In this document: piece by piece, positions 1 to 37,419 of the stretch | How positions within the stretch are numbered: position 1 is the first letter of the stretch | Layout of the letters: every line of letters starts with the position of its first letter | Assembly (NCBI RefSeq): GCF_015143595.1 | Contig: NZ_WYEU01000003.1 | Span: forward strand, 310,001-374,000 | DNA from: Sneathiella sp. P13V-1 | GTDB lineage: Bacteria; Pseudomonadota; Alphaproteobacteria; Sneathiellales; Sneathiellaceae | Length of the DNA stretch: 64,000 bases | Direction: 5' to 3' | Made by a program: the position numbers and the translations under genes | The notes under the pieces: generated by a model | What the model saw: only the letters and a program-made list of their open reading frames with translations | Databases searched by the model: none | Told to the model about the DNA's origin: nothing

Positions 1-169
1 CGTGGCGTGGCAGGAAAACCATCTGCACACCATCCAGTTCGCCAAACAGTAACTCATCGGACGGTTCCCCAAATGGAGAAGTTACTTGTTCCCATCGGGT
101 ATTTTGCAGATTATCAAGATCATAAACGCCACTTCCACCAATGACGCCGATTACTGGTTTTTTAGTCAC
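1..169 (-). CDS. mtnP: S-methyl-5'-thioadenosine phosphorylase, N-terminal part (gene cut by window edge)
   Basis: The first 56 codons, read leftwards from a GTG start at 169, give an N-terminus with the VIGVIGGSGVY motif followed by a phosphate-loop-like region and FLPRHG. This is the start of the MTAP/PNP family, which cleaves 5'-methylthioadenosine to adenine and methylthioribose-1-phosphate in methionine salvage. GGAGG sits 7 bases before the GTG, which supports this start. The rest of the gene lies outside the window. A hairpin terminator separates it from petC upstream, so it is probably transcribed separately from the bc1 operon. MTAP rather than another purine phosphorylase is inferred from the N-terminal motif only. 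Confidence 0.8.
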   Translation of the reverse strand, partial: MTKKPVIGVIGGSGVYDLDNLQNTRWEQVTSPFGEPSDELLFGELDGVQMVFLPRH

Positions 170-24450: not shown

Positions 24451-26568
24451 TCAGCTTTCTTCAATGTTCTCTGGTGGATTGGAAAAATGAGCCCAGTCTT
24501 CTCTTCCGCCCTTATTTTCCACATAATTGATCAGTGCACTCACCGGACGACGGTCATATTTTTTATCCGTCCCCTCCATCAGAATGGAAAGCGCTCTATT
24601 TATTGATAGTGCCGGACGATAAGCCCGCGCACTTACCATTCCCACATAATCATTTGCCACCAACAGAATACGGGCTGGCAAACTGATTGCCTCTTCTTTC
24701 AAGCCCCGCGGCTGACCGCTACCATCCCAATGTTCCTGCAACTGACGCAATGCTTCAGCAACAGGCAAGTCAAAACGCACCCCTTCCAGAAGATCTGCAC
24801 TTGCAAACATGCTATCTCGAATGATCGCTTTCTCTTCATCCGTCAGATTTTCAGTTTTGGTCAGCAACTCAGGTGGGACAAGGATTTTACCCAAATTCAT
24901 CAAATTGCCGGCGATATCTACGGTACGGCGGATACGATCTTCCGCACCGAGTTCCTCTGAAATAGCGATGGCGACTTCCGCAACCCGGGCAGACTGGTTT
25001 GCAGAATAGGGATCACGTCGGTCCAAAAATGCCACCAAAGTGCGCACCAGGCTTCGAAGGACTTTCTCGCGCTGTTCGCGTTCTGCGACGACTTCCGTAA
25101 TATCCTGAAATACACCAAGCATTTCGGAGCCATGTTCATCCCCTTTACCCAATGGGACAAATTCTGACATCCACACTCGATCGCCTTCTTCTGTCTGCAC
25201 ATGAACCAGTTCACTTTGAATTTCTTTTTCTCGGCGTCCACGATCCAGGATTTCTTTAAGCTGATTTCCCACGTCTTTGTTAAAAGCTGTCAAAAGTGAA
25301 CGCCCAATAATCTCCGTTTGATTCATTTGCGCATCATCAGCCGCCATCTTGTTGGCAAAGGTGTAGTGGTCATCTTTGTCAAACACAGCAATGGCATTCG
25401 GTTGCTGGTCCGTTACAATCTTGAGAAATTCAGTGCGTTCAGAAAGATTATCGGCTGTTTCTTTATATTTGGCAGCCAACTCAGCGGCACGCAATGAAGT
25501 ACCATGACGCCATACCGCAATAACCGTACCTGTGACACCGATAATCAGCAGGAGAAACACCCCAAGCATTGTGTTAAGACGCTGCTTCGATTCCGCAAGT
25601 GCTTCTATTGTTGTTATACTCCGAACGAGATACCAAGGCGCACCTGAAATAGCACGGCCTGTTACCAGTACTTCATCGCCAAGATAGTTGCTGCGAGCGG
25701 CAAAACTCCCTGGGTTTTCTACAACGAAAGCCGCCGCTAATTTGGCGTCTGCCGTGAGTTTTCGTTTCAATGCGTCTGTACCATCTCCTAGTGGAGAGAT
25801 ATAGTCGATCAGCTTGTCACTTTTGCGAACAAGATAGGTATCCGTTGTCTCTAACGTGTCACCTGGTTGGTGCAGGGTTGGGAAGAGTGACTTCCTGACC
25901 GTTCTCAATCCAACAATAAAGCCAATGATATCGTCTTTCGACCCTTCATTTTGGATAGAGTAAACGGGTTGAACAAAGCCCATTGTAGGCTCGCCATCCA
26001 ATCCTTCGTATATGTCTATGATCGCAGCAACACCATTTGCAGCTTCTGCCATCCCTGCACGGATTGCCGGGTTCATCGGCGGCATACTTCCACTGGATAC
26101 GAGAAGCTGACCTGTTGCGTCAGTCAATGCAATACCGGCTCTACCCGGGCGCGCCACATTGGCCCTTATTTCCGGTTCCTCTGGCTCCCAAAAACCGCTT
26201 ATCACTGCCTGATTATTTAGCAGGTTAATCAAATAGCCGGCCTCAGGAACATCAGTGATCTTGCTTCCATTGTCCCCTGTCTCAATCACCAACTGCGTCA
26301 AATAGATTTGCAGCGATTCATTTTCGGCGAGCGAAAGAACAGCCGCTTTTTGCTCCGTAATCCACCGTTGTACATCCGCAGCACGACTGTCTGCGACGAT
26401 GCCAAGCTGAACTTCCCAGTTTTGGATATCTCTTTCTCTCTGACTATTTACAAAAGAAAGAGTTCCCCATACTCCCGCGATGACGACTGACGCCAATGCA
26501 ATCGCACCAACTGACAGAATTTTATAGGTGCGCTTGCGCGTACTGGTTTCTTCAATAATGTCCGACAT
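24451..26568 (-). CDS. Membrane sensor with dCACHE-like, PAS and degenerate HD-GYP domains
   Basis: From the ATG at 26568 the protein has 705 residues: TM1 about 17-40, a periplasmic region about 41-333 with CACHE-like segments (AGIALTDATGQLLVSSG, VTGRAISGAPWYLVRS), TM2 about 334-353, a PAS domain about 375-495 ending in FQDITE, and an HD-GYP-like domain about 505-690. The metal site is lost: the HD pair is Met557-Asn558, the HHE region reads QEHWDGSGQP, and the aspartate of the VAD motif is Asn640. c-di-GMP hydrolysis is therefore unlikely; a receptor or scaffold role is inferred. It is divergent from lapG, sharing its promoter region. Confidence 0.88.
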   Translation of the reverse strand: MSDIIEETSTRKRTYKILSVGAIALASVVIAGVWGTLSFVNSQRERDIQNWEVQLGIVADSRAADVQRWITEQKAAVLSLAENESLQIYLTQLVIETGDNGSKITDVPEAGYLINLLNNQAVISGFWEPEEPEIRANVARPGRAGIALTDATGQLLVSSGSMPPMNPAIRAGMAEAANGVAAIIDIYEGLDGEPTMGFVQPVYSIQNEGSKDDIIGFIVGLRTVRKSLFPTLHQPGDTLETTDTYLVRKSDKLIDYISPLGDGTDALKRKLTADAKLAAAFVVENPGSFAARSNYLGDEVLVTGRAISGAPWYLVRSITTIEALAESKQRLNTMLGVFLLLIIGVTGTVIAVWRHGTSLRAAELAAKYKETADNLSERTEFLKIVTDQQPNAIAVFDKDDHYTFANKMAADDAQMNQTEIIGRSLLTAFNKDVGNQLKEILDRGRREKEIQSELVHVQTEEGDRVWMSEFVPLGKGDEHGSEMLGVFQDITEVVAEREQREKVLRSLVRTLVAFLDRRDPYSANQSARVAEVAIAISEELGAEDRIRRTVDIAGNLMNLGKILVPPELLTKTENLTDEEKAIIRDSMFASADLLEGVRFDLPVAEALRQLQEHWDGSGQPRGLKEEAISLPARILLVANDYVGMVSARAYRPALSINRALSILMEGTDKKYDRRPVSALINYVENKGGREDWAHFSNPPENIEES

Positions 26569-26681
26569 ATTTTTTTCCGCTAGGGTATCAGTGTTTTTTA
26601 CCTTGAGATCCAATGCAACAGATTGAACAACAAGCATTATTTAGTAGCCCAAAACTATTTCACGATAAAATGAACTAACGA

Positions 26682-26758: not shown

Positions 26759-27406
26759 ATGAAAAAGCGACTTTCAGTCAGTAAACAACTTCTGTTGGCA
26801 TCTTTGTTGTCGATGGGCCTGGCAACCACCGGGATGGCGGAGCCTGCTGAAGCAAAAACTGTATTTGGCTTCAAGGGATACAGCCACAACACCTTGAAAC
26901 CATTTCCAAAATGGCGACGTGTTCTTGATGAATACAAAGAACGCCCTGGAGATTGTAATAGCGGTCAACTAAACGCCTGTGCATTCAAGAAGTGGAACGA
27001 GTTGATCGAAGAGCTCAAAGACAAGCCGAAGAAATTCCAGTTGGGCAAAGTAAACAGCTACATGAATCTTTATCGCTACATGCTGGATCCAATTAACTGG
27101 GGGGTGAAGGACTACTGGGAAATTCCAAAGGAGTTTTTTGCTAAATTCGGTGACTGTGAAGACTATGCAATTGTCAAATACTTCACCCTGCGTGCGCTAG
27201 GTTGGGAAGCCGATGATTTACAGATCGTCGTCCTGCAGGATCTGAATTTGCGAATTGCCCATGCCATTCTCACCGTCAATCTGGATGGCAAAAAAATGGT
27301 ACTGGATAATCAGATCAGTCTGGTTGTAGATGCAAAACGCATTCGTCACTACCGGCCTATCTATTCGGTAAACGAAAAGGGTTGGTGGCGTTATAAACCT
27401 TCATGA
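26759..27406 (+). CDS. lapG: LapG-type transglutaminase-like cysteine protease (BTLCP family), catalytically intact
   Basis: A 215-residue protein with a signal peptide (about 1-32, ending AEA). The core reads KDYWEIPKEFFAKFGDCEDYAIVKYFTLRALG and places Cys133 (GDCEDY), His168 (RIAHAILTV) and Asp183 (MVLDNQ) as the catalytic set of LapG. Acidic residues around DCED could bind calcium as in known LapG. The known role is periplasmic cleavage of a T1SS-anchored adhesin near its N-terminus, releasing it from the surface. It sits between the divergent HD-GYP sensor and the convergent TolC-like gene, a few kilobases from the cognate secretion genes. AGGA lies unusually close to the ATG. Confidence 0.93.
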   Translation: MKKRLSVSKQLLLASLLSMGLATTGMAEPAEAKTVFGFKGYSHNTLKPFPKWRRVLDEYKERPGDCNSGQLNACAFKKWNELIEELKDKPKKFQLGKVNSYMNLYRYMLDPINWGVKDYWEIPKEFFAKFGDCEDYAIVKYFTLRALGWEADDLQIVVLQDLNLRIAHAILTVNLDGKKMVLDNQISLVVDAKRIRHYRPIYSVNEKGWWRYKPS

Positions 27407-27469: not shown

Positions 27470-28813
27470 TTAGCTATTGTCGTTTGGCAACGCTTCTTCC
27501 GGGAGAGTGACACCCAGAGTGCTGTTCAAGCGACCCATAGTTGCAAGCAGACGATACTTGGCAAACAGAACTGCATATTCAACAGTTGTCAAAGCAGTAC
27601 GAGAGTTGAACAACTCGTTGTCTGCGTCCAGCATATCGAGAAGATCACGCTGACCGATCTGGAATTCCTGACGGTAAGTCGCAGCCACCTGACCGTTCGC
27701 AACCACCTGATCACCAAGTGAAACGGAACGAGCCTGTGAGCGCATCAGTATGCTCCAGCTTTGGCGAATTTCTTCTTCAACCAAACGCTCAAAACGCATT
27801 TTACGCTGTTTGCTTTCGGAGCTGCGCTCCATAGCTTCCTGCTGGCGACCGACATCGATACCGCCACGATACAGGTTGTAACGCATACGAACCATTGCAG
27901 TGAAGTCGTCGCTGTGACCTTCAACACCGTCTAGATCATTGTTGGCAGAAGCACCAAGCTCAAGGTTGACCGTTGGATAGAAGTTAGCTTCCGCAGCTCT
28001 GATTTCAGCTTCAGAAGTTACAACATCTGCATTTGCGAAGCGAATGTCAGGGTTGCTTTCGAGGCCGATTGAAACCACGTCTTCCAGTGTGTCTGGAATA
28101 ATATCATCCTTGAAGGACGGCAGTTCCAGATTTACAGGAGCCTCACCAACCAAGCGGCGGTATGCAATTTCTGATTCATCCAGCTGACGGAGAGTTTCTG
28201 TCAGAGCAGCTTCAGCGGCAGCGACACGAGATTCAGTCTGCTGTACATCACCAACACCACTTTGACCTGCGTCTGCACGATCACGGATTTCTTTCAGTGT
28301 ACGCTTGTGGATTTCCAGATTTTCCGTCGCAAGGTTTACAACTTCGAGATTACGAAGAACGTCTAGGTATGCCTGAACAGTATCGAGACCGATTGCTTCA
28401 GAACGTTCACGAACGCGGTATGCTGCACCATCAATGCGGCTTTCCTGACGATCGACCTCTGCCGCACGGAAACCACCGTCAATCAGTGTCTGTGTCAGAG
28501 TAATGCTACCCTCAGTACGTGTCAGCCACTCATCATCAATTGTGTTGGTGTCTGTCCACTCTTTACCAGCGCCAATCGCAAGATCAACTGATGGATAGTA
28601 TAAACCTTCAGCTTGCTCCAGCTCCTGACCGATCGCGCGACGGTTAGCAGCAGCTTCCGCAATTTCAGGATAGTTTGTGACGGTTGCCTGAACCGCATCT
28701 TTCAATGACGCGGCCTGAACCGGTGCCGCCATCAGAGCGCCTCCGAACACAGCTGCCACTACACCCGCTGAAATCACGTTGCGAGCGCTGATTGAGCTAA
28801 TTTTGGACTTCAT
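27470..28813 (-). CDS. lapE: TolC-family outer-membrane channel of a type I secretion system (LapE-like)
   Basis: A 447-residue outer-membrane efflux protein with a signal peptide (1-34, ending VQA). The two OEP repeats are visible: the first around RRAIGQELEQAEGLYYPSVDLAIGAG and YRVRERSEAIGLDTVQAYLDVLRN, the second around EAEIRAAEANFYPTVNLELGASA and LVEEEIRQSWSILMRSQARS, with NSRTALTTVEYAVLFAKYRLLATMG at the end. It forms the trimeric exit duct for the LapB/LapC pump encoded 0.8 kb away on the other strand. GAGGGG precedes the ATG. Confidence 0.92.
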   Translation of the reverse strand: MKSKISSISARNVISAGVVAAVFGGALMAAPVQAASLKDAVQATVTNYPEIAEAAANRRAIGQELEQAEGLYYPSVDLAIGAGKEWTDTNTIDDEWLTRTEGSITLTQTLIDGGFRAAEVDRQESRIDGAAYRVRERSEAIGLDTVQAYLDVLRNLEVVNLATENLEIHKRTLKEIRDRADAGQSGVGDVQQTESRVAAAEAALTETLRQLDESEIAYRRLVGEAPVNLELPSFKDDIIPDTLEDVVSIGLESNPDIRFANADVVTSEAEIRAAEANFYPTVNLELGASANNDLDGVEGHSDDFTAMVRMRYNLYRGGIDVGRQQEAMERSSESKQRKMRFERLVEEEIRQSWSILMRSQARSVSLGDQVVANGQVAATYRQEFQIGQRDLLDMLDADNELFNSRTALTTVEYAVLFAKYRLLATMGRLNSTLGVTLPEEALPNDNS

Positions 28814-29615: not shown

Positions 29616-31931
29616 ATGACAGATCAAACCAGTAGTGCAGGTAAACGCCCAAATTTGGGCGGGGAAAGTTTCGACCAAAAGGCGGCTGAGAGCTTAAAGC
29701 ACGCGGATCCGCATATGGCACATCGAGATGCCGAAGAGATGAAAGAGAGTGCGGCTGCCGCCAGCAATCCTGAAGCTGAAGGCTGGGAAATCAACCTATC
29801 TGAAGTCTCCAGAACGGATCACGACAGCCTGCTTGGCTGCCTTGTCGCGATGACAAAAATCTTTGATGATCCAAGAACATCTGACGCCTTAATTTATGGT
29901 CTTCCTTTAGAAGATAATAAACTGACACCTGGCCTATTTGTACGCGCAGCTGAGAGAATCGGCGTTAGCGCGAGAGTTACAAACAGGAAAATTAGCAAAA
30001 TCCCAGACATCGTTCTGCCTACAGTATTGCTGCTTAAAGATCGTCGGGCTTGCGTCCTTTTGAAAAGAAGCGGTCAGCAAGCTGAAGTCATTTTCCCCGA
30101 GACTGGAGAGGGAACTCAAACAGTTCCCTTGAAAGAACTAGAGGATCTATATGCAGGTTATGCAATTTTTATGCGACCTAACTTTAAATTCAGGGTTGCA
30201 AAGGATGATCGTCTGGAAGAACGCACAGGCTCCTGGTTCTGGGGAACCATCTGGAAGTTCTGGCCAACTTACGCTCAGGTGGTTGTAGCCGCATTTCTTA
30301 TCAATAGCTTCGCGATCGCGAGCCCCCTATTCATTATGAATGTCTACGACCGTGTTGTACCGAATAAGGCATTGGAAACGCTATGGGTTTTGGCTTTCGG
30401 TGTCATAACAGTTGTGGGATTTGATCTTGTCCTGAAGACCTTGCGATCTTACTTTGTTGATAATGCAGGCAAGCGTGCAGATGTACTCCTCTCAAGCCGG
30501 ATTTTCGAGCAGGTATTGAACATTCAGGTAAAAGCCCGCCCCCAATCCTCGGGCGCTTTTGCCAATCACCTGAGAGAGTTTGAAACGCTCCGTGATTTCT
30601 TCACTTCTGCGACCGTAACAGCTCTGGTTGACCTGCCGTTCCTTGGCGTTTTCCTGTTTATTATTTTCCTGATCGGCGGTCCAATTGCCATTGTTCCTGC
30701 GATCGCTGTTCCCGTGGTGATCATCCTCGGTCTGTTACTACAACTTCCTATGCGAAGGGCAGTTGCCAAAAACACAGAAGAGAACTCGCAAAAGCATGGT
30801 GTGATCATTGAAACTATTTCCGCCCTCGACACAGTTAAAAGTCTGGGCGTGGAAGGTCACATGCAGAAAGAGTGGGAGCGCTTTGTCGGACAAACAGCCA
30901 AAACCAGTGTAACGTCCCGCTTTTTCGCTGGCCTAGGGATCAATTTGTCCGCAGCGGCCATGCAGCTCGTTACCGTATTTGTTGTGATCTATGGTGTGAC
31001 ATTGATGTCAGATCCCGATTCTACAATGACAATTGGCGCTTTGATCGCTTCTACAATTCTAACGGGCCGGACAATGGCACCGCTTAGCCAGATCGCGGCA
31101 CTTCTAACACGTCTTAATCAGGCGATGGTCGCCCTGAAAGGGTTAAACCAGATCATGGATCTGCCTGTGGAGCGGGATGCACAGAAGCGTCAGCTGAGCC
31201 GCCCGAACATTAAGGGTGAAGTGGAGTTCAAAGATGTCACATTCAAATATCCTGGAACTGATCTTCCTGCGCTTTCAAATGTGTCGTTCAAAATACGCCC
31301 CGGTGAAAAAGTGGCGATCATTGGTCCGGTGGGATCAGGGAAGACCACGATTTCAAGATTGCTGATTAATCTGTATGAGCCGGATGAGGGGGCTGTCCTT
31401 GTGGACGGGACTGATATTCGTCAGATTGATCCATCGGACATTCGTCGCTCGGTCGGCAGTGTGATGCAGGATGTCACCCTGTTCCACGGCACTGTGCGTC
31501 ATAATATTACCATGGGCCACCCTCAAGCCGACGATGAAATGATCCTCCGCGCCTCCAAACTTGCCGGGGTTCATGATTTCGTCAGCCGTCATCCACATGG
31601 ATACGACCTTCTTGTTGGCGAAAAAGGGGCGACACTTTCTGGTGGTCAACGTCAGGCACTTGGTATTGCCAGATCACTTCTGCCAAACCCACCGGTTTTG
31701 ATGTTTGATGAGCCGACCAGCTCCATGGATTTGAACTCGGAGAAACGTTTCATCTCCCGTCTTCAAAGCTACGCTCAAAACAAGACACTTATTCTGGTGA
31801 CACACAGAACATCCCTGTTCTCCATCGTCGATCGGATCATTGTTCTTGGGAACGGTAAAATCGTTGCCGATGGCCCGCGCGACGAGGTCCTGAAAATTGG
31901 ACAACGTCAGAACAAAAAGAAATCTGCATAA
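29616..31931 (+). CDS. lapB: Type I secretion ABC transporter with C39-like domain (LapB-like)
   Basis: A 771-residue membrane exporter. A hydrophilic extension of about 65 residues is followed by a C39-like domain (about 66-195; SLLGCLVAMTKIFDDP) typical of LapB proteins, which bind but do not cleave substrate. Next come six membrane helices (about 205-470, FAIASPLFIMNVYDRVVPN) and an NBD with GPVGSGKTT (Walker A), LSGGQRQALGIARSLL (signature), LMFDEPTSSMD (Walker B) and VTHRTSL. The family exports large RTX adhesins through LapC and LapE. It begins the lapB-lapC-pseudo-lapG-sensor operon. Confidence 0.93.
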   Translation: MTDQTSSAGKRPNLGGESFDQKAAESLKHADPHMAHRDAEEMKESAAAASNPEAEGWEINLSEVSRTDHDSLLGCLVAMTKIFDDPRTSDALIYGLPLEDNKLTPGLFVRAAERIGVSARVTNRKISKIPDIVLPTVLLLKDRRACVLLKRSGQQAEVIFPETGEGTQTVPLKELEDLYAGYAIFMRPNFKFRVAKDDRLEERTGSWFWGTIWKFWPTYAQVVVAAFLINSFAIASPLFIMNVYDRVVPNKALETLWVLAFGVITVVGFDLVLKTLRSYFVDNAGKRADVLLSSRIFEQVLNIQVKARPQSSGAFANHLREFETLRDFFTSATVTALVDLPFLGVFLFIIFLIGGPIAIVPAIAVPVVIILGLLLQLPMRRAVAKNTEENSQKHGVIIETISALDTVKSLGVEGHMQKEWERFVGQTAKTSVTSRFFAGLGINLSAAAMQLVTVFVVIYGVTLMSDPDSTMTIGALIASTILTGRTMAPLSQIAALLTRLNQAMVALKGLNQIMDLPVERDAQKRQLSRPNIKGEVEFKDVTFKYPGTDLPALSNVSFKIRPGEKVAIIGPVGSGKTTISRLLINLYEPDEGAVLVDGTDIRQIDPSDIRRSVGSVMQDVTLFHGTVRHNITMGHPQADDEMILRASKLAGVHDFVSRHPHGYDLLVGEKGATLSGGQRQALGIARSLLPNPPVLMFDEPTSSMDLNSEKRFISRLQSYAQNKTLILVTHRTSLFSIVDRIIVLGNGKIVADGPRDEVLKIGQRQNKKKSA

Positions 31932-31968: not shown

Positions 31969-33297
31969 ATGTCCAAAAAGAATAACTGGAATGACGCAGA
32001 TTTTGCTTCTGATGTGGCGGCTGCGGAAATACAAGGGCCAAGCCCAAAATCACTGCTTTTACTATTTGGTGTTATTGCCTTCTTTGTGGCTGCCTATATT
32101 TGGGCGGACAACGCGATTCTGGATGAGGTAACTCGCGGTGACGGTAAAGTTATCCCTTCATCACAAGTTCAGGTCATTCAAAACCTTGAAGGTGGCATCC
32201 TGAAAGAACTTCTGGTGCGCGAGGGTGAGATCGTTGAGAAAGGTCAAATTCTTCTTCGTATTGACGATACGGGTTTTGCAGCCAGATTTGGTGAAATTGA
32301 ATCTCAATACATGAATCTGCTTGGCAAGATCGCCAGGCTGGAGGCAGAAGCTGAAGGCAAGGGAGTAAACTTCCCTCCAGAACTCCTGGCGGAAGCGCCT
32401 ACCATTAGTCAGCGTGAACAAAGTTTGTTCAATGCACGTCAGGCTGAACTGCAATCTCAGATTTCCATTTTGCGTCAGCAGTCTCAGCAAAGAAAACAGG
32501 AAATTGCTGAAATTAACGGTAAGCTGGATCAACTCACTGCTAGTCTGGCACTGGTAACTGAGGAGCTATCCATTACAGAACCACTCGCGGAAAAAGGTAT
32601 TGTTCCGAAAGTTCAACTGCTTCAATTAAAACGCGAAGTGAATGAGCTTCGTGGTCAGATCTCAGCTTCAAGACTTGCCCTTCCTCGCGCTCAAGGTGCG
32701 TTAAGGGAAGCTAACCAGCGTATTGAGGAAAAAATCCTGAATTTCAGAAGTCTCGCCTCTCAGGAACTCAGTGTTTCCCGTGCTGAATATGAAGTGGTTC
32801 GCCAATCAATTCTGGCGGCTAAAGACCGGGTTACCCGTACAGATGTACGCTCGCCGCTTAAAGGTGAAGTGAAAGCGCTTCACATCCAAACACTAGGCGG
32901 TGTTGTCCGCCCAGGTCAGGATATTGTGGAGATTGTTCCGATTGAGGATTCCCTACTAGTGGAAGCAAAAATCCGACCATCGGATATTGCCTTCCTGCGC
33001 CCAGGACAACAAGCCACGGTGAAAATCTCGGCCTATGACTATTCCATTTATGGCGGTTTACCTGCCAAGCTGGAAAGGATCAGTCCGGATACCATTACTG
33101 ATGAACAAACAGGTGAAACCTTCTATCAGATTATTGTTCGGACAGAAGAGAACTCTCTAAAACGTGGCGAAGAAATATTCCCGATTAAACCTGGTATGAT
33201 CGCTACAGTTGATACCCTTACCGGCCATAAGTCGGTGCTGGACTACATTTTAAAACCAATTCTGAAAACCAAGAACAACGCTTTGAGAGAACGCTAA
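31969..33297 (+). CDS. lapC: HlyD-family membrane fusion protein (LapC-like)
   Basis: A 442-residue periplasmic adaptor with one N-terminal membrane helix (about residues 25-43), a lipoyl half-motif VIPSSQVQVIQNLEGGILKELLVREGEIVEKGQILLRID, a long coiled coil (about 130-285), a second lipoyl half TDVRSPLKGEVKAL, and a beta-barrel domain LVEAKIRPSDIAFLRPGQQATVKISAYDYSIYGGL. This is the type I secretion MFP layout. It links LapB with the TolC-like duct. It ends inside the start of the next gene (TAATG), so translation is likely coupled. Confidence 0.93.
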   Translation: MSKKNNWNDADFASDVAAAEIQGPSPKSLLLLFGVIAFFVAAYIWADNAILDEVTRGDGKVIPSSQVQVIQNLEGGILKELLVREGEIVEKGQILLRIDDTGFAARFGEIESQYMNLLGKIARLEAEAEGKGVNFPPELLAEAPTISQREQSLFNARQAELQSQISILRQQSQQRKQEIAEINGKLDQLTASLALVTEELSITEPLAEKGIVPKVQLLQLKREVNELRGQISASRLALPRAQGALREANQRIEEKILNFRSLASQELSVSRAEYEVVRQSILAAKDRVTRTDVRSPLKGEVKALHIQTLGGVVRPGQDIVEIVPIEDSLLVEAKIRPSDIAFLRPGQQATVKISAYDYSIYGGLPAKLERISPDTITDEQTGETFYQIIVRTEENSLKRGEEIFPIKPGMIATVDTLTGHKSVLDYILKPILKTKNNALRER

Positions 33298-33977
33298 TGA
33301 TTGCAAAATCACTTATTCTCGCCGCGTTAGGTATGGGTTTGATGAATGCACCTTCAAACGTTTCGGCGACTGAAAACGGTCTATTTGGAACTACGGAGAT
33401 ACCATCTCGAAATCTGGATGCCTTGCCACAATGGAAGCGTGTTATCTCAAGTTTTCCAGAACTGGAAAAAGCGGCCGCGGAATGTGACCGTGATATCCTG
33501 CGCTGTGGATCGCAGCAAATGACGCTGTGGCGCACAAAAATTCAGGAGTTGGAACACGCAAGCCTCAATCAAAAGGTGCGTGAAGTGAACCGTTTTATCA
33601 ACAAGTGGCAAATTGCCAAAGATCAGGATCTGTATAAACAGGCTGATCATTGGGCAGCACCTCTTGATTTCCTACCGAACGGTGGGGATTCTGAAGATTT
33701 TGCGATTATGAAATATGTCAGCCTGAAAGAGTTGGGGGTTAAGCCGGAAAACATGCGGCTCGTGGTGACAAATGATGTCCTGCGCGGACAGACCCACACG
33801 ATCTTAGGCCTCACGGCAGCAGGTAAGACATATATCCTGGACTCGCAAAATGACAGCGTCCTTGAGGAGGGACTCGTGAAATACTACGTCCCTTTTTATT
33901 CAGCAAACGAAACCACCCGCTGGGCACATATCCCCGGCCACTTAGCACGTCAGGGGAATGTTGGGGGGAATAAATAA
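33297..33977 (+). CDS. LapG-like protein with catalytic Cys replaced by Ser (probable pseudoprotease)
   Basis: A 226-residue secreted protein (signal about 1-24) collinear with the intact LapG of this window: LPQWKRVI, LNQKVREVNRFINKWQIAKD, then GGDSEDFAIMKYVSLKELG where LapG has GDCEDYAI. The codon at 33690-33692 is TCT, so residue 132 is Ser; His167 (QTHTILGL) and Asp182 (YILDSQ) are kept. Cysteine protease activity should be lost or changed. It is encoded within the secretion operon, overlapping both neighbours by one base, so it likely works with the secretion pump or the adjacent sensor. A Ser-based hydrolase cannot be ruled out. Confidence 0.88.
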   Translation: MIAKSLILAALGMGLMNAPSNVSATENGLFGTTEIPSRNLDALPQWKRVISSFPELEKAAAECDRDILRCGSQQMTLWRTKIQELEHASLNQKVREVNRFINKWQIAKDQDLYKQADHWAAPLDFLPNGGDSEDFAIMKYVSLKELGVKPENMRLVVTNDVLRGQTHTILGLTAAGKTYILDSQNDSVLEEGLVKYYVPFYSANETTRWAHIPGHLARQGNVGGNK

Positions 33978-36031
33978 TGACTGAAACAATGGCAAATATG
34001 GAATTAAACAAGTTTATGGCCAATGATCTGCCGGATGAGGCGGATGGTGGTAACAAAAAACCCCTCCTTATTGGCGGTATCCTAGCCTTGGCTTTGGCAA
34101 TTGGTTGCGTTTTTGTTTCCAATTCCTTTATCAGCGGAAAGCAGACAGCTCTTCTCGAAGAGTTGCAAACCCGGCAAGAAATCGCGGTTGAAGGCCGTGC
34201 CAATCTATTGGCGGCCTGGTTAGATGAAACTGCGCAACGGGCGAAGCCGATTACGGCCAGTCCGCTGTTCCAATTGTTTGCAACGGAAATTGGTATTTCA
34301 GGTGGTGGAAATCTTCCGCAAGCCCTTCAAAACCAGTTGCCTTACATGCAGAATGCAATCACTAGCTTTGTTCAAGAGAACCAGTTGGTTGGCGCCTATC
34401 TTATTGGACCTGATGGCCGAGCTTATCTGGCCTCTGCGGGCGCACCGGGTTTGAGCGATGAACAACGTGAAAAAGCGGTTAGCCAATATGACCGATCTGA
34501 AATCACTGTATCACCACTGCGTGATGCAAGTGACGACCTGCTCATTGATTATATGATCCCGATCTTTGCACCGCAAGCAACCGCTGGTGAAGAAAAAGGC
34601 AAAGTGACAGGCGTGTTGGTCATGGTGCTAAGTGCCTCCGATGCAATTAACACAGCCCTCAAGCCATCAAAACTTGATGCAGAGGGGCAGGTTCTTCACC
34701 TTTATCAGAAGCAGGGCGATAACTACGCGTTGGTTTCCCCGTCAAAAACCCCGAAAATTGCGAAAAGCAATACATCAGACATGGGCCAAGACTTTGGCTT
34801 ACGCCCACTAAACTCTAACGGTACGTTCTATTTCACATCTGGCAACCAGGTGACAGGTACTGATTGGATGGTCTTGCAAGGACTACCTCAAAGCACTGCA
34901 TTATCGGAGTTGGAGACCTACAAGTTTTCAATCTATGGCCTATCCGGCAGCTTTTTCCTGGTTGTGATCAGTATTGTCAGCGGCATCTGGTTTAGTCTGA
35001 AAAGCCAAAATGCCAAAGATATGGCTGACCAATACAAAACGCTTGCACAGCAAATCAATGCACAGCGCCGTCTACTTGGCAGCATCAATGGAAGTATCGA
35101 GGACCTTATTGGTCTGACGGATGCGCAAGGATTTTACGTTTATGCCAACCCTGCCCTCGCCCGTTTTACAGATTTCCCGGAAGCCTCAATTGCCGGTAAA
35201 TCCGACCGAGATCTGTTTGGCGACGTCGCGGCAAGAAAACTGGATGAGATGAACCAGAAAGTCATGGTCAGCGGTCAGCCGACAAATGACATTTTTGAAA
35301 TGGATACCGCCAATGGGGTCCGGATTGTTCGCGTCGAAAAATCCAAACTGTCTGATGACAGCGATTCCTTTATGGGTATTGTGACCGTTATCGGTGATAT
35401 CACCGAATATATCACCTTCCAGCGCCAGAAAGAGGAACAGGGTCGCAAGACAATCTCAATCCTTGTGCGCATGATGGAAGAAAATGATCCATATCTCGCC
35501 GGTCATTCACAGCGGATGGGAGAACTTTCCAACAATGTTGCCAAGATTTTGGATATCCCACGTGAGGAACGCCAAAATATTGCAACCTCTGCGAACCTTT
35601 CACAGATTGGTAAAATCTCGATTCCACCGGAAATCCGGACAAAAGAAGGCCGTTTGACCGACGAAGAAATGAACATCATGAAAGGTCATGTGGACCGCGC
35701 GGGTGAATTGCTCGGAGAGATGGATATCGATGAAGATGTGATTACAGCCGTAACACAGATGTATGAGCGTCAAGATGGATCCGGCTATCCGAAACAACTT
35801 TCTGGGGATGAGATTAACGTCTCCGCCCGTATTCTGGGCATGGCTGATATTCTGGTCGCGCGTGTATCACCGCGCTCCTACCGTCAGGCAATTACCGTGG
35901 AAGAAGCCATGGAAGTATTCCGCACAAATCCGGAGAAATATGATCCGAAGGTCGTGACGGCGTTCGATGAATTCTTAAAAACAACTGACGGAAAGACGCT
36001 AGTCGATAGTCTTGAAGGTGGAATTGGATAA
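33977..36031 (+). CDS. Second membrane sensor with dCACHE-like, PAS and degenerate HD-GYP domains
   Basis: A 684-residue protein with TM1 about 28-50, a periplasmic domain about 51-317 with CACHE-like segments (VGAYLIGPDGRAYLASAG, TFYFTSGNQVTGTDWMVLQG), TM2 about 318-340, a PAS domain about 368-480 (IGLTDAQGFYVYANPALARF, VIGDITEY) and an HD-GYP-like domain about 490-672. GHS with His510, His571 and GSGYP are kept, but the HD pair is Ser542-Gln543 and the HHE motif is Met-Tyr-Glu. Hydrolysis of c-di-GMP is doubtful; binding is possible. It closes the lapB operon, starting within the stop of the pseudo-LapG gene, and ends at a strong terminator. Confidence 0.88.
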   Translation: MTETMANMELNKFMANDLPDEADGGNKKPLLIGGILALALAIGCVFVSNSFISGKQTALLEELQTRQEIAVEGRANLLAAWLDETAQRAKPITASPLFQLFATEIGISGGGNLPQALQNQLPYMQNAITSFVQENQLVGAYLIGPDGRAYLASAGAPGLSDEQREKAVSQYDRSEITVSPLRDASDDLLIDYMIPIFAPQATAGEEKGKVTGVLVMVLSASDAINTALKPSKLDAEGQVLHLYQKQGDNYALVSPSKTPKIAKSNTSDMGQDFGLRPLNSNGTFYFTSGNQVTGTDWMVLQGLPQSTALSELETYKFSIYGLSGSFFLVVISIVSGIWFSLKSQNAKDMADQYKTLAQQINAQRRLLGSINGSIEDLIGLTDAQGFYVYANPALARFTDFPEASIAGKSDRDLFGDVAARKLDEMNQKVMVSGQPTNDIFEMDTANGVRIVRVEKSKLSDDSDSFMGIVTVIGDITEYITFQRQKEEQGRKTISILVRMMEENDPYLAGHSQRMGELSNNVAKILDIPREERQNIATSANLSQIGKISIPPEIRTKEGRLTDEEMNIMKGHVDRAGELLGEMDIDEDVITAVTQMYERQDGSGYPKQLSGDEINVSARILGMADILVARVSPRSYRQAITVEEAMEVFRTNPEKYDPKVVTAFDEFLKTTDGKTLVDSLEGGIG

Positions 36032-36657: not shown

Positions 36658-37419
36658 TTAACGTCTAATATTAGAAAATAATGAACTTGGTATCCCGATC
36701 CCGTATACTTTTCCATCATCTAAAGTTCTCGTAGCTGAATGCAGCCCGATAATCTGGTACTCGCCATCAGTTTTCGTAAAAATGGGAGATCCAGAATCCC
36801 CTTTTGTCGCATCGCAGTCATGCGCATAGAGGGGAACTGTCCCATCGTTCAACTTCGCTATTCTAACCACTTTACAATTCCGATGCATGGTCAAGACATG
36901 TGGATAATCCTTGCTATAGCCAGATTGCATCACAGAGGCATTTCGCTTCTTTAGGGACGTTGACAATACAGGGATCCACCCGAACTGATCACCAAGCGGC
37001 TTGTCGATTTTTAAAATAGCCCAGTCATCTTTTCGTTCTGCGTTAGGGTAACTACCTGCTTTCTTCATATCGGTGGAAAGTGAATAGCTAACGCCTTTTG
37101 CGTGTCCTGCAAAGCGTCCCTTTTCATATCCTGGCAGGAAATGGAAATATTTGGCGTCTGACCAGCGTCTGGTTCGCTTGTTCCAAAAACAATGGGCCGC
37201 AGTCAGAACTGTATCTGGGCCGATCAACACCCCTGTACAGAAACTGCCGTCTTTGTTAATTCGGCCAATACTGCGCCATGGTGTCTTCGTGACATCCGGA
37301 AACTCCCTGTTATCTTCTCCCTTAATTCCGCGCAACTGAAGTTTTTTTGCAGCATGGACATTTCCTTCCGTAAATGAAAGGCAAAGGGGGATCAGCAGTA
37401 AGGAGAAAAACTTGTTCAT
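36658..37419 (-). CDS. Secreted trypsin-like serine protease
   Basis: A 253-residue protein with a signal peptide (about 1-23, ending VHA). The S1 chymotrypsin-fold catalytic triad is complete: His76 in TAAHC, Asp132 in DDWAIL and Ser209 in GDSGSP. Paired Cys (61/77 and 182/202 by position) can form disulfides. The mature part starts near a RGIKGEDNRE segment, which may be a propeptide. It acts in the periplasm or outside; substrates are unknown. The gene follows a small lipoprotein gene without a gap, so the two form an operon. Confidence 0.9.
   Translation of the reverse strand: MNKFFSLLLIPLCLSFTEGNVHAAKKLQLRGIKGEDNREFPDVTKTPWRSIGRINKDGSFCTGVLIGPDTVLTAAHCFWNKRTRRWSDAKYFHFLPGYEKGRFAGHAKGVSYSLSTDMKKAGSYPNAERKDDWAILKIDKPLGDQFGWIPVLSTSLKKRNASVMQSGYSKDYPHVLTMHRNCKVVRIAKLNDGTVPLYAHDCDATKGDSGSPIFTKTDGEYQIIGLHSATRTLDDGKVYGIGIPSSLFSNIRR

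Follow-up and report, generated by a model that had tools for sequence, protein, structure and literature searches.

Sneathiella sp. P13V-1 carries, within a type I secretion operon, a LapG-family protein that lacks the catalytic cysteine and is very probably a conserved non-catalytic protein; that it acts as a regulator through binding only is the reading favoured as a whole, with a lesser degree of confidence. Lap/Dvh systems govern the choice of biofilm cells to stay attached or to leave. In the known systems, a receptor restrains a protease that cuts surface adhesins and thereby frees the cells. The gene, here called pseudo-LapG (pseudo-DvhG), occupies positions 33297-33977 on the forward strand of the analysed window, a stretch of 64,000 nucleotides that contains both Peptidase_C93 genes of this genome.

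The open reading frame of pseudo-LapG starts with ATG and encodes 226 amino acids, with an N-terminus that reads as Sec-type from the sequence. The codon TCT at 33690-33692 (forward strand) encodes S132 where LapG proteases have their catalytic Cys, and residues 130-134 accordingly read GDSED, while H167 and D182 are present and align in register with the LapG triad. The Cys-His-Asp triad of the LapG/DvhG protease is therefore incomplete by one residue, as the original prediction had claimed. The protein belongs to the Peptidase_C93 family by both profile match and transglutaminase-like fold: PF06035 (Peptidase_C93/BTLCP) matches with an E-value of 3.6e-15 and 56.6 bits against a cut-off of 27, and the AlphaFold2 model (mean pLDDT 87.9) is closest to the LapG structures 4FGQ, 4FGP, 4FGO and 4U65 in the PDB, with Z scores of 18-19 compared to 10.6 for the next unrelated chain. 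On the NCBIfam CystProtLapG equivalog profile, which has a cut-off of 320, pseudo-LapG scores 76.5 bits and the active-type paralogue 89.8 bits, likewise below the cut-off. The window protein retains the calcium ligands D131, E133 and D109, which part of Sneathiella has lost.

Pseudo-LapG is embedded in a locus with two LapG-receptor pairs. The active-type LapG paralogue (26759-27406, forward strand) displays GDCED as well as the His and Asp, is 29% identical to pseudo-LapG and is divergent from a second DvhD-type receptor, DvhD_up (24451-26637, reverse strand), which has dCache, PAS and HD-GYP domains with HD replaced by MN. Throughout, the term active for GDCED copies is read from the motif. 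A TolC-family outer membrane channel (27470-28813, reverse strand; TIGR01844) follows, and then the type I secretion ABC transporter LapB of the LssB subfamily (29616-31931, forward strand; TIGR03375), the HlyD-family type I secretion adaptor LapC (31969-33297, forward strand; TIGR01843), pseudo-LapG and the operon receptor DvhD_op (33977-36031, forward strand), again a dCache-PAS-HD-GYP protein, with HD replaced by SQ and HH by MY. The one-base overlaps predicted on both sides of pseudo-LapG were confirmed, as lapC ends at 33297 and the receptor gene starts at 33977, both junctions reading TAATG. Finally, a trypsin-like secreted protease with intact VLTAAHC and GDSGSP motifs (36658-37419, reverse strand) is a possible part of the system. 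The gene order receptor-LapG-TolC-LapB-LapC-pseudoLapG-receptor is identical across all intact Sneathiella loci, with the active-type LapG and DvhD_up 6.5 kb upstream of pseudo-LapG in every one of them. Among the loci compared, the upstream receptor gene of L057 (11205-13362) lies in two overlapping frames and lapC of L054 (2298-3650) is split, each reflecting a frameshift or sequencing error, and L049 (6788-8687) holds a tandem pair of LapG-family genes, both GDCED.

The assignment of a LapG motif and a lapBC operon in the original prediction stood, but it had left the type of sensor unnamed; the downstream gene encodes a DvhD-type dCache-PAS-HD-GYP receptor and not LapD. The best PDB matches of DvhD_op are structures of Desulfovibrio vulgaris DvhD (9RC0, E=8e-51; 9RBZ, E=1.3e-38; dCache domain 9RC2, E=3.4e-19), and its domain order of dCache, PAS and HD-GYP is the DvhD-type architecture. 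DvhD_up matches DvhD by sequence in the PAS and HD-GYP domains, and its model resembles the DvhD dCache domain 9RC2 with a target TM-score of 0.75. A single profile search for LapD_MoxY_N (PF16448) gave no match in the genome, and the control genomes were silent too. The HD-GYP metal motifs have been lost genus-wide in both receptors, with SQ and MY in DvhD_op (IN in one subclade) and MN and LQ in DvhD_up. DvhD itself carries the SQ substitution and binds c-di-GMP without cleaving it (PMC13090378). Mapping the c-di-GMP contacts by hand from a phmmer alignment showed that Y523, P567, L577, Y621, R650 and Y652 are kept in DvhD_op and that K582, M646 and E668 are changed; because three DvhD contacts are changed, c-di-GMP binding by DvhD_op is uncertain. 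An HD-GYP receptor in place of LapD was considered as a novelty and rejected, having already been published for DvhD. A third HD-GYP domain gene (contig C3:448143-448637) is unlinked to any LapG. In D. vulgaris, the genes are ordered T1SS-DvhG-DvhD (PMC13090378 Fig. 1b), and the same order here puts pseudo-LapG in the DvhG slot; since the tree described below contains no DvhG sequence, gene order and the receptor are the grounds for treating the operon copy as a DvhG orthologue.

A class-wide search of Alphaproteobacteria, including gene neighbourhoods, revealed two separate pairs: an operon type, LapB-LapC-LapG-DvhD, with an SQ-like receptor motif, and a divergent LapG-DvhD pair with MN. In other families, the LapGs of both types are GDCED, and genomes G172 and G349 contain both pair types, unlinked and both active-type. 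In a tree made without the motif columns and based on 133 columns only, the operon-type clade has a support of 95/92 and includes Cys-bearing members. The original prediction had proposed examining whether the Ser form makes a conserved clade, and the Cys-less operon copies (Sneathiella, its sister genus, L042-L044 and L046) do group, forming one clade of 26 rows with 92/85 support beside Cys-bearing orthologues. Judged from these sequences, the analysis shows that the catalytic Cys was lost in an ancestor that Sneathiella shares with its close relatives. The GDDED proteins L045 and L115 may represent a second loss of the Cys, with a single origin not rejected (p-AU 0.275).

Across the genus, residue 132 is Ser in all readable copies (24-25 genomes, fragments included), and the upstream paralogue is GDCED in every genome. 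Cys in close relatives with Ser in this strain only, as a recent mutation or sequencing error would give, was looked for and rejected, Ser being fixed across Sneathiella in many assemblies. The sister genus has Pro at the Cys position within a GDPLD motif. In one Sneathiella subclade, the motif has eroded to GGSRD, GRSRD or GGSKD, with Gln in place of His in a single member; here D131, E133, D109 and the His are eroded while the gene remains intact. At D109, the third calcium residue, all 52 Cys-bearing LapGs have Asp, but four proteins of the decayed subclade have E, A or N. Overall, position 132 in the Cys-less clade is S, P or G (D in the possible second loss), two lineages have lost the His (Q or E), and one subclade has lost the calcium ligands. 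The outgroup L046 (3709-13149) has the full two-pair cluster, in which the operon LapG keeps no residue of the catalytic triad (GDGED, with Glu for His and Gly for Asp).

These patterns bear on the serine hydrolase that the original prediction had offered as a second option, in which Ser132 would act as the nucleophile with His167 and Asp182 in a Ser-type LapG. The window protein has all three residues, as does most of Sneathiella, and the Ser is invariant in the genus despite being encoded by all four TCN codons. Yet the same clade also tolerates Pro or Gly for the Ser and Gln or Glu for the His, and calcium ligands, which are required for DvhG activity (PMC13090378), are eroded in the decayed subclade (subclade B). 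In the census, which covers about 113 distinct C93 proteins, 105 carry the C-H-D triad, and four LapG relatives from other alphaproteobacterial families have independently exchanged Cys for Ser (L216 1786-2694; L231 3742-4566; L237 3989-4642; L239 3730-4398); in each of them the His and/or Asp is replaced, and none has an adjoining DvhD-type receptor. In addition, the C192S substitution inactivates the family member HvyA (PMC4241560). A serine hydrolase is consequently very unlikely, even if weak hydrolysis is possible in this species, as the S-H-D triad of the window protein is formally intact. The retention of Ser could be explained without chemistry: in the AlphaFold2 model the central helix (132-145) begins with S132, and the residues seen at this position, S, D, G and P, are favourable for starting a helix. 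Ser132 would then be kept because it caps the helix N-terminus well, with no part as a nucleophile.

The main claim of the original prediction, selection rather than pseudogenisation, was borne out by the proposed comparison of nonsynonymous and synonymous change. In close Sneathiella pairs (dS ~0.9-2.6), dN/dS is 0.04-0.11 for pseudo-LapG and 0.04-0.09 for the active-type LapG, and the pseudo-LapG frames are open throughout, except in copies cut by short contigs; together with the fixed Ser and the supported Cys-less clade, this argues for a maintained pseudoprotease, and a pseudogene was rejected. Pairs among L042-L044 gave dN/dS of 0.45-0.66, but these are near-identical metagenome sequences in which the receptor gene is raised too. 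It could still be argued that the gene is decaying and kept only through its operon position, considering that pseudo-LapG evolves faster than the active LapG (mean distance 0.68 versus 0.42) and that the active site is eroding in one subclade. Such decay is, however, most improbable given the low dN/dS, the open frames and the appearance of a newly invariant helix.

This helix, QQMTLWRTKIQEL (residues 73-85; 33513-33551, forward strand), is nearly invariant in the Sneathiella pseudo-LapGs only. In the same 18 species, the mean pair identity of window 73-85 is 0.90 in pseudo-LapG (rank 3 of 169) versus 0.66 in the active-type LapG (rank 123). The opposite is seen for window 106-118, which aligns to the calcium-binding loop of LapG: here pseudo-LapG is at 0.21, last of 169, versus 0.87 in the active type. 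Column permutations gave p=0.013 for 73-85, a window found by scanning and for which p allows for the maximum over windows, and p<5e-5 for 106-118. The codons of helix 73-85 vary synonymously, which points to constraint on the protein; an overlapping gene or nucleotide-level constraint was rejected for the same reason. The genus-specific signal could also originate from folding or an unrelated partner. The loss of the Cys and of constraint on the calcium loop, combined with the retained fold, export signal and receptor coupling and the newly constrained helix, fits a binding role.

As for what pseudo-LapG binds, its coupling to the neighbouring gene and the top partial rate correlation lead us to infer that its partner is the operon receptor. 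Pseudo-LapG and the DvhD_op dCache domain are a fast-evolving pair with the highest partial rate correlation (0.47), albeit a weak and phylogenetically non-independent one; the value with the DvhD_up dCache domain is 0.32, a small difference. By analogy with the handling of an active protease by DvhD and LapD, DvhD_op would sense cytoplasmic c-di-GMP and retain or free pseudo-LapG in the periplasm. Once freed, pseudo-LapG may rival the active LapG for the retention module and the P[AE][AG]G site of the adhesin, or for the second receptor, so that the two branches together would set how easily the adhesin is cut. It may be speculated, if only tentatively, that the doubly dead branch (HD-GYP and LapG) is a c-di-GMP-gated protector or decoy opposing the parallel active pair on the same adhesin. 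The two targets put forward in the original prediction, the adhesin cleavage site and the sensor (here DvhD-type), are both plausible candidates. Among the targets, shielding of the adhesin is rated the likeliest, slightly above competition for the receptor, yet it is itself a more doubtful proposal.

Competition for the receptor would have the reverse outcome: pseudo-LapG would bind the dCache domain of DvhD_up, displace the active LapG and promote adhesin release. The fold common to both LapGs, the single architecture of both receptors and the clustering of both pairs in all intact Sneathiella loci would suit such a decoy. On the other hand, the two LapGs share only 29% of their residues and the rate correlation is higher with DvhD_op, albeit by the small gap noted above, making a decoy for DvhD_up rather unlikely.

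Alternatively, recognition of the adhesin N-terminus by pseudo-LapG could take place at the type I secretion system and aid retention or positioning, with no interplay with the active LapG. Translational coupling to lapC in the transporter operon would be expected of such an accessory, as would the LapG fold, which normally docks on the retention module (PMC13090378). The GDDED LapG relative at L115 (5986-8885) speaks against it: this dead copy has a DvhD-type receptor and no lapB or lapC beside it, indicating that the link to lapB and lapC is less constant than that to the receptor. In the same genome, G203, there is an operon copy (L116) that is GDCED. A purely secretory function is hence regarded as improbable.

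The trypsin-like neighbour could instead do the cutting, with pseudo-LapG as an adaptor presenting the adhesin. The gene with GDSGSP adjoins that of the operon receptor at 20 loci of Sneathiella as well as at L120 and L124, but the latter two carry an active-type GDCED LapG. With an active-type LapG kept everywhere and trypsin-like genes found beside GDCED copies, no replacement protease is needed, and little likelihood is given to an adaptor function. A binding-only regulator coupled to the operon receptor is the favoured reading.

Candidate adhesin substrates are found in most members of the genus as FecR/RTX proteins of 1000-2100 amino acids with P[AE][AG]G directly after the FecR domain. 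In this genome, the candidate LapG substrate, predicted from its sequence, is a 2098-amino-acid FecR/RTX adhesin with EPAAGG past the FecR domain; its start lies at L081 1168-3195 (contig C2 near 47016), with a TolC gene upstream. At the equivalent position, relatives have PAAG, PEAG or PEGG. The P[AE][AG]G motif resembles the published adhesin cleavage consensus, [TAP]AAG (PMC13090378).

The closest known system is DvhG-DvhD of D. vulgaris (PMC13090378), with which Sneathiella shares the T1SS-DvhG-DvhD order with its LapG-fold periplasmic protein, a dCache-PAS-HD-GYP receptor with HD replaced by SQ, and FecR/RTX-type adhesins whose P-x-x-G motif matches the layout of a retention domain plus [TAP]AAG. 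However, DvhG is an active Cys protease and its positional counterpart in Sneathiella is dead, and Sneathiella adds a second, active-type LapG and another receptor built from the same domains. The LapG-LapD systems of Pseudomonas fluorescens and Legionella (PDB 4U65, 4FGO) have in common the LapG fold, the C93 profile and the logic of adhesin release, but differ in that the receptors here are HD-GYP-based, with no LapD detected, and in that the operon copy has no catalytic Cys. HvyA, a BTLCP of Caulobacter, is likewise a periplasmic member of the family from an alphaproteobacterium, yet it requires its Cys (C192S is non-functional), acts on capsulation and is encoded in the capsule locus (PMC4241560). 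No LapG pseudoprotease was found by name in the literature searched, which is not proof of absence, nor did that literature describe a locus where the DvhG slot is filled by a conserved pseudoprotease and an active-type paralogue nearby has a receptor to itself.

The DvhD-type receptor, whose structure was reported in 2026 from sulfate reducers, is now extended to operons in several alphaproteobacterial families. If the proposed function is true, no earlier case of a pseudoprotease regulating Lap/Dvh adhesin release is on record within the literature searched, and the doubly dead branch would be the first. Two pairs have been kept, one of them with a protease that does not cut, so that the tuning of adhesin release could be studied here as a natural experiment, and the Sneathiella lineage offers a defined test of whether docking to substrate and receptor can be separated from cutting.
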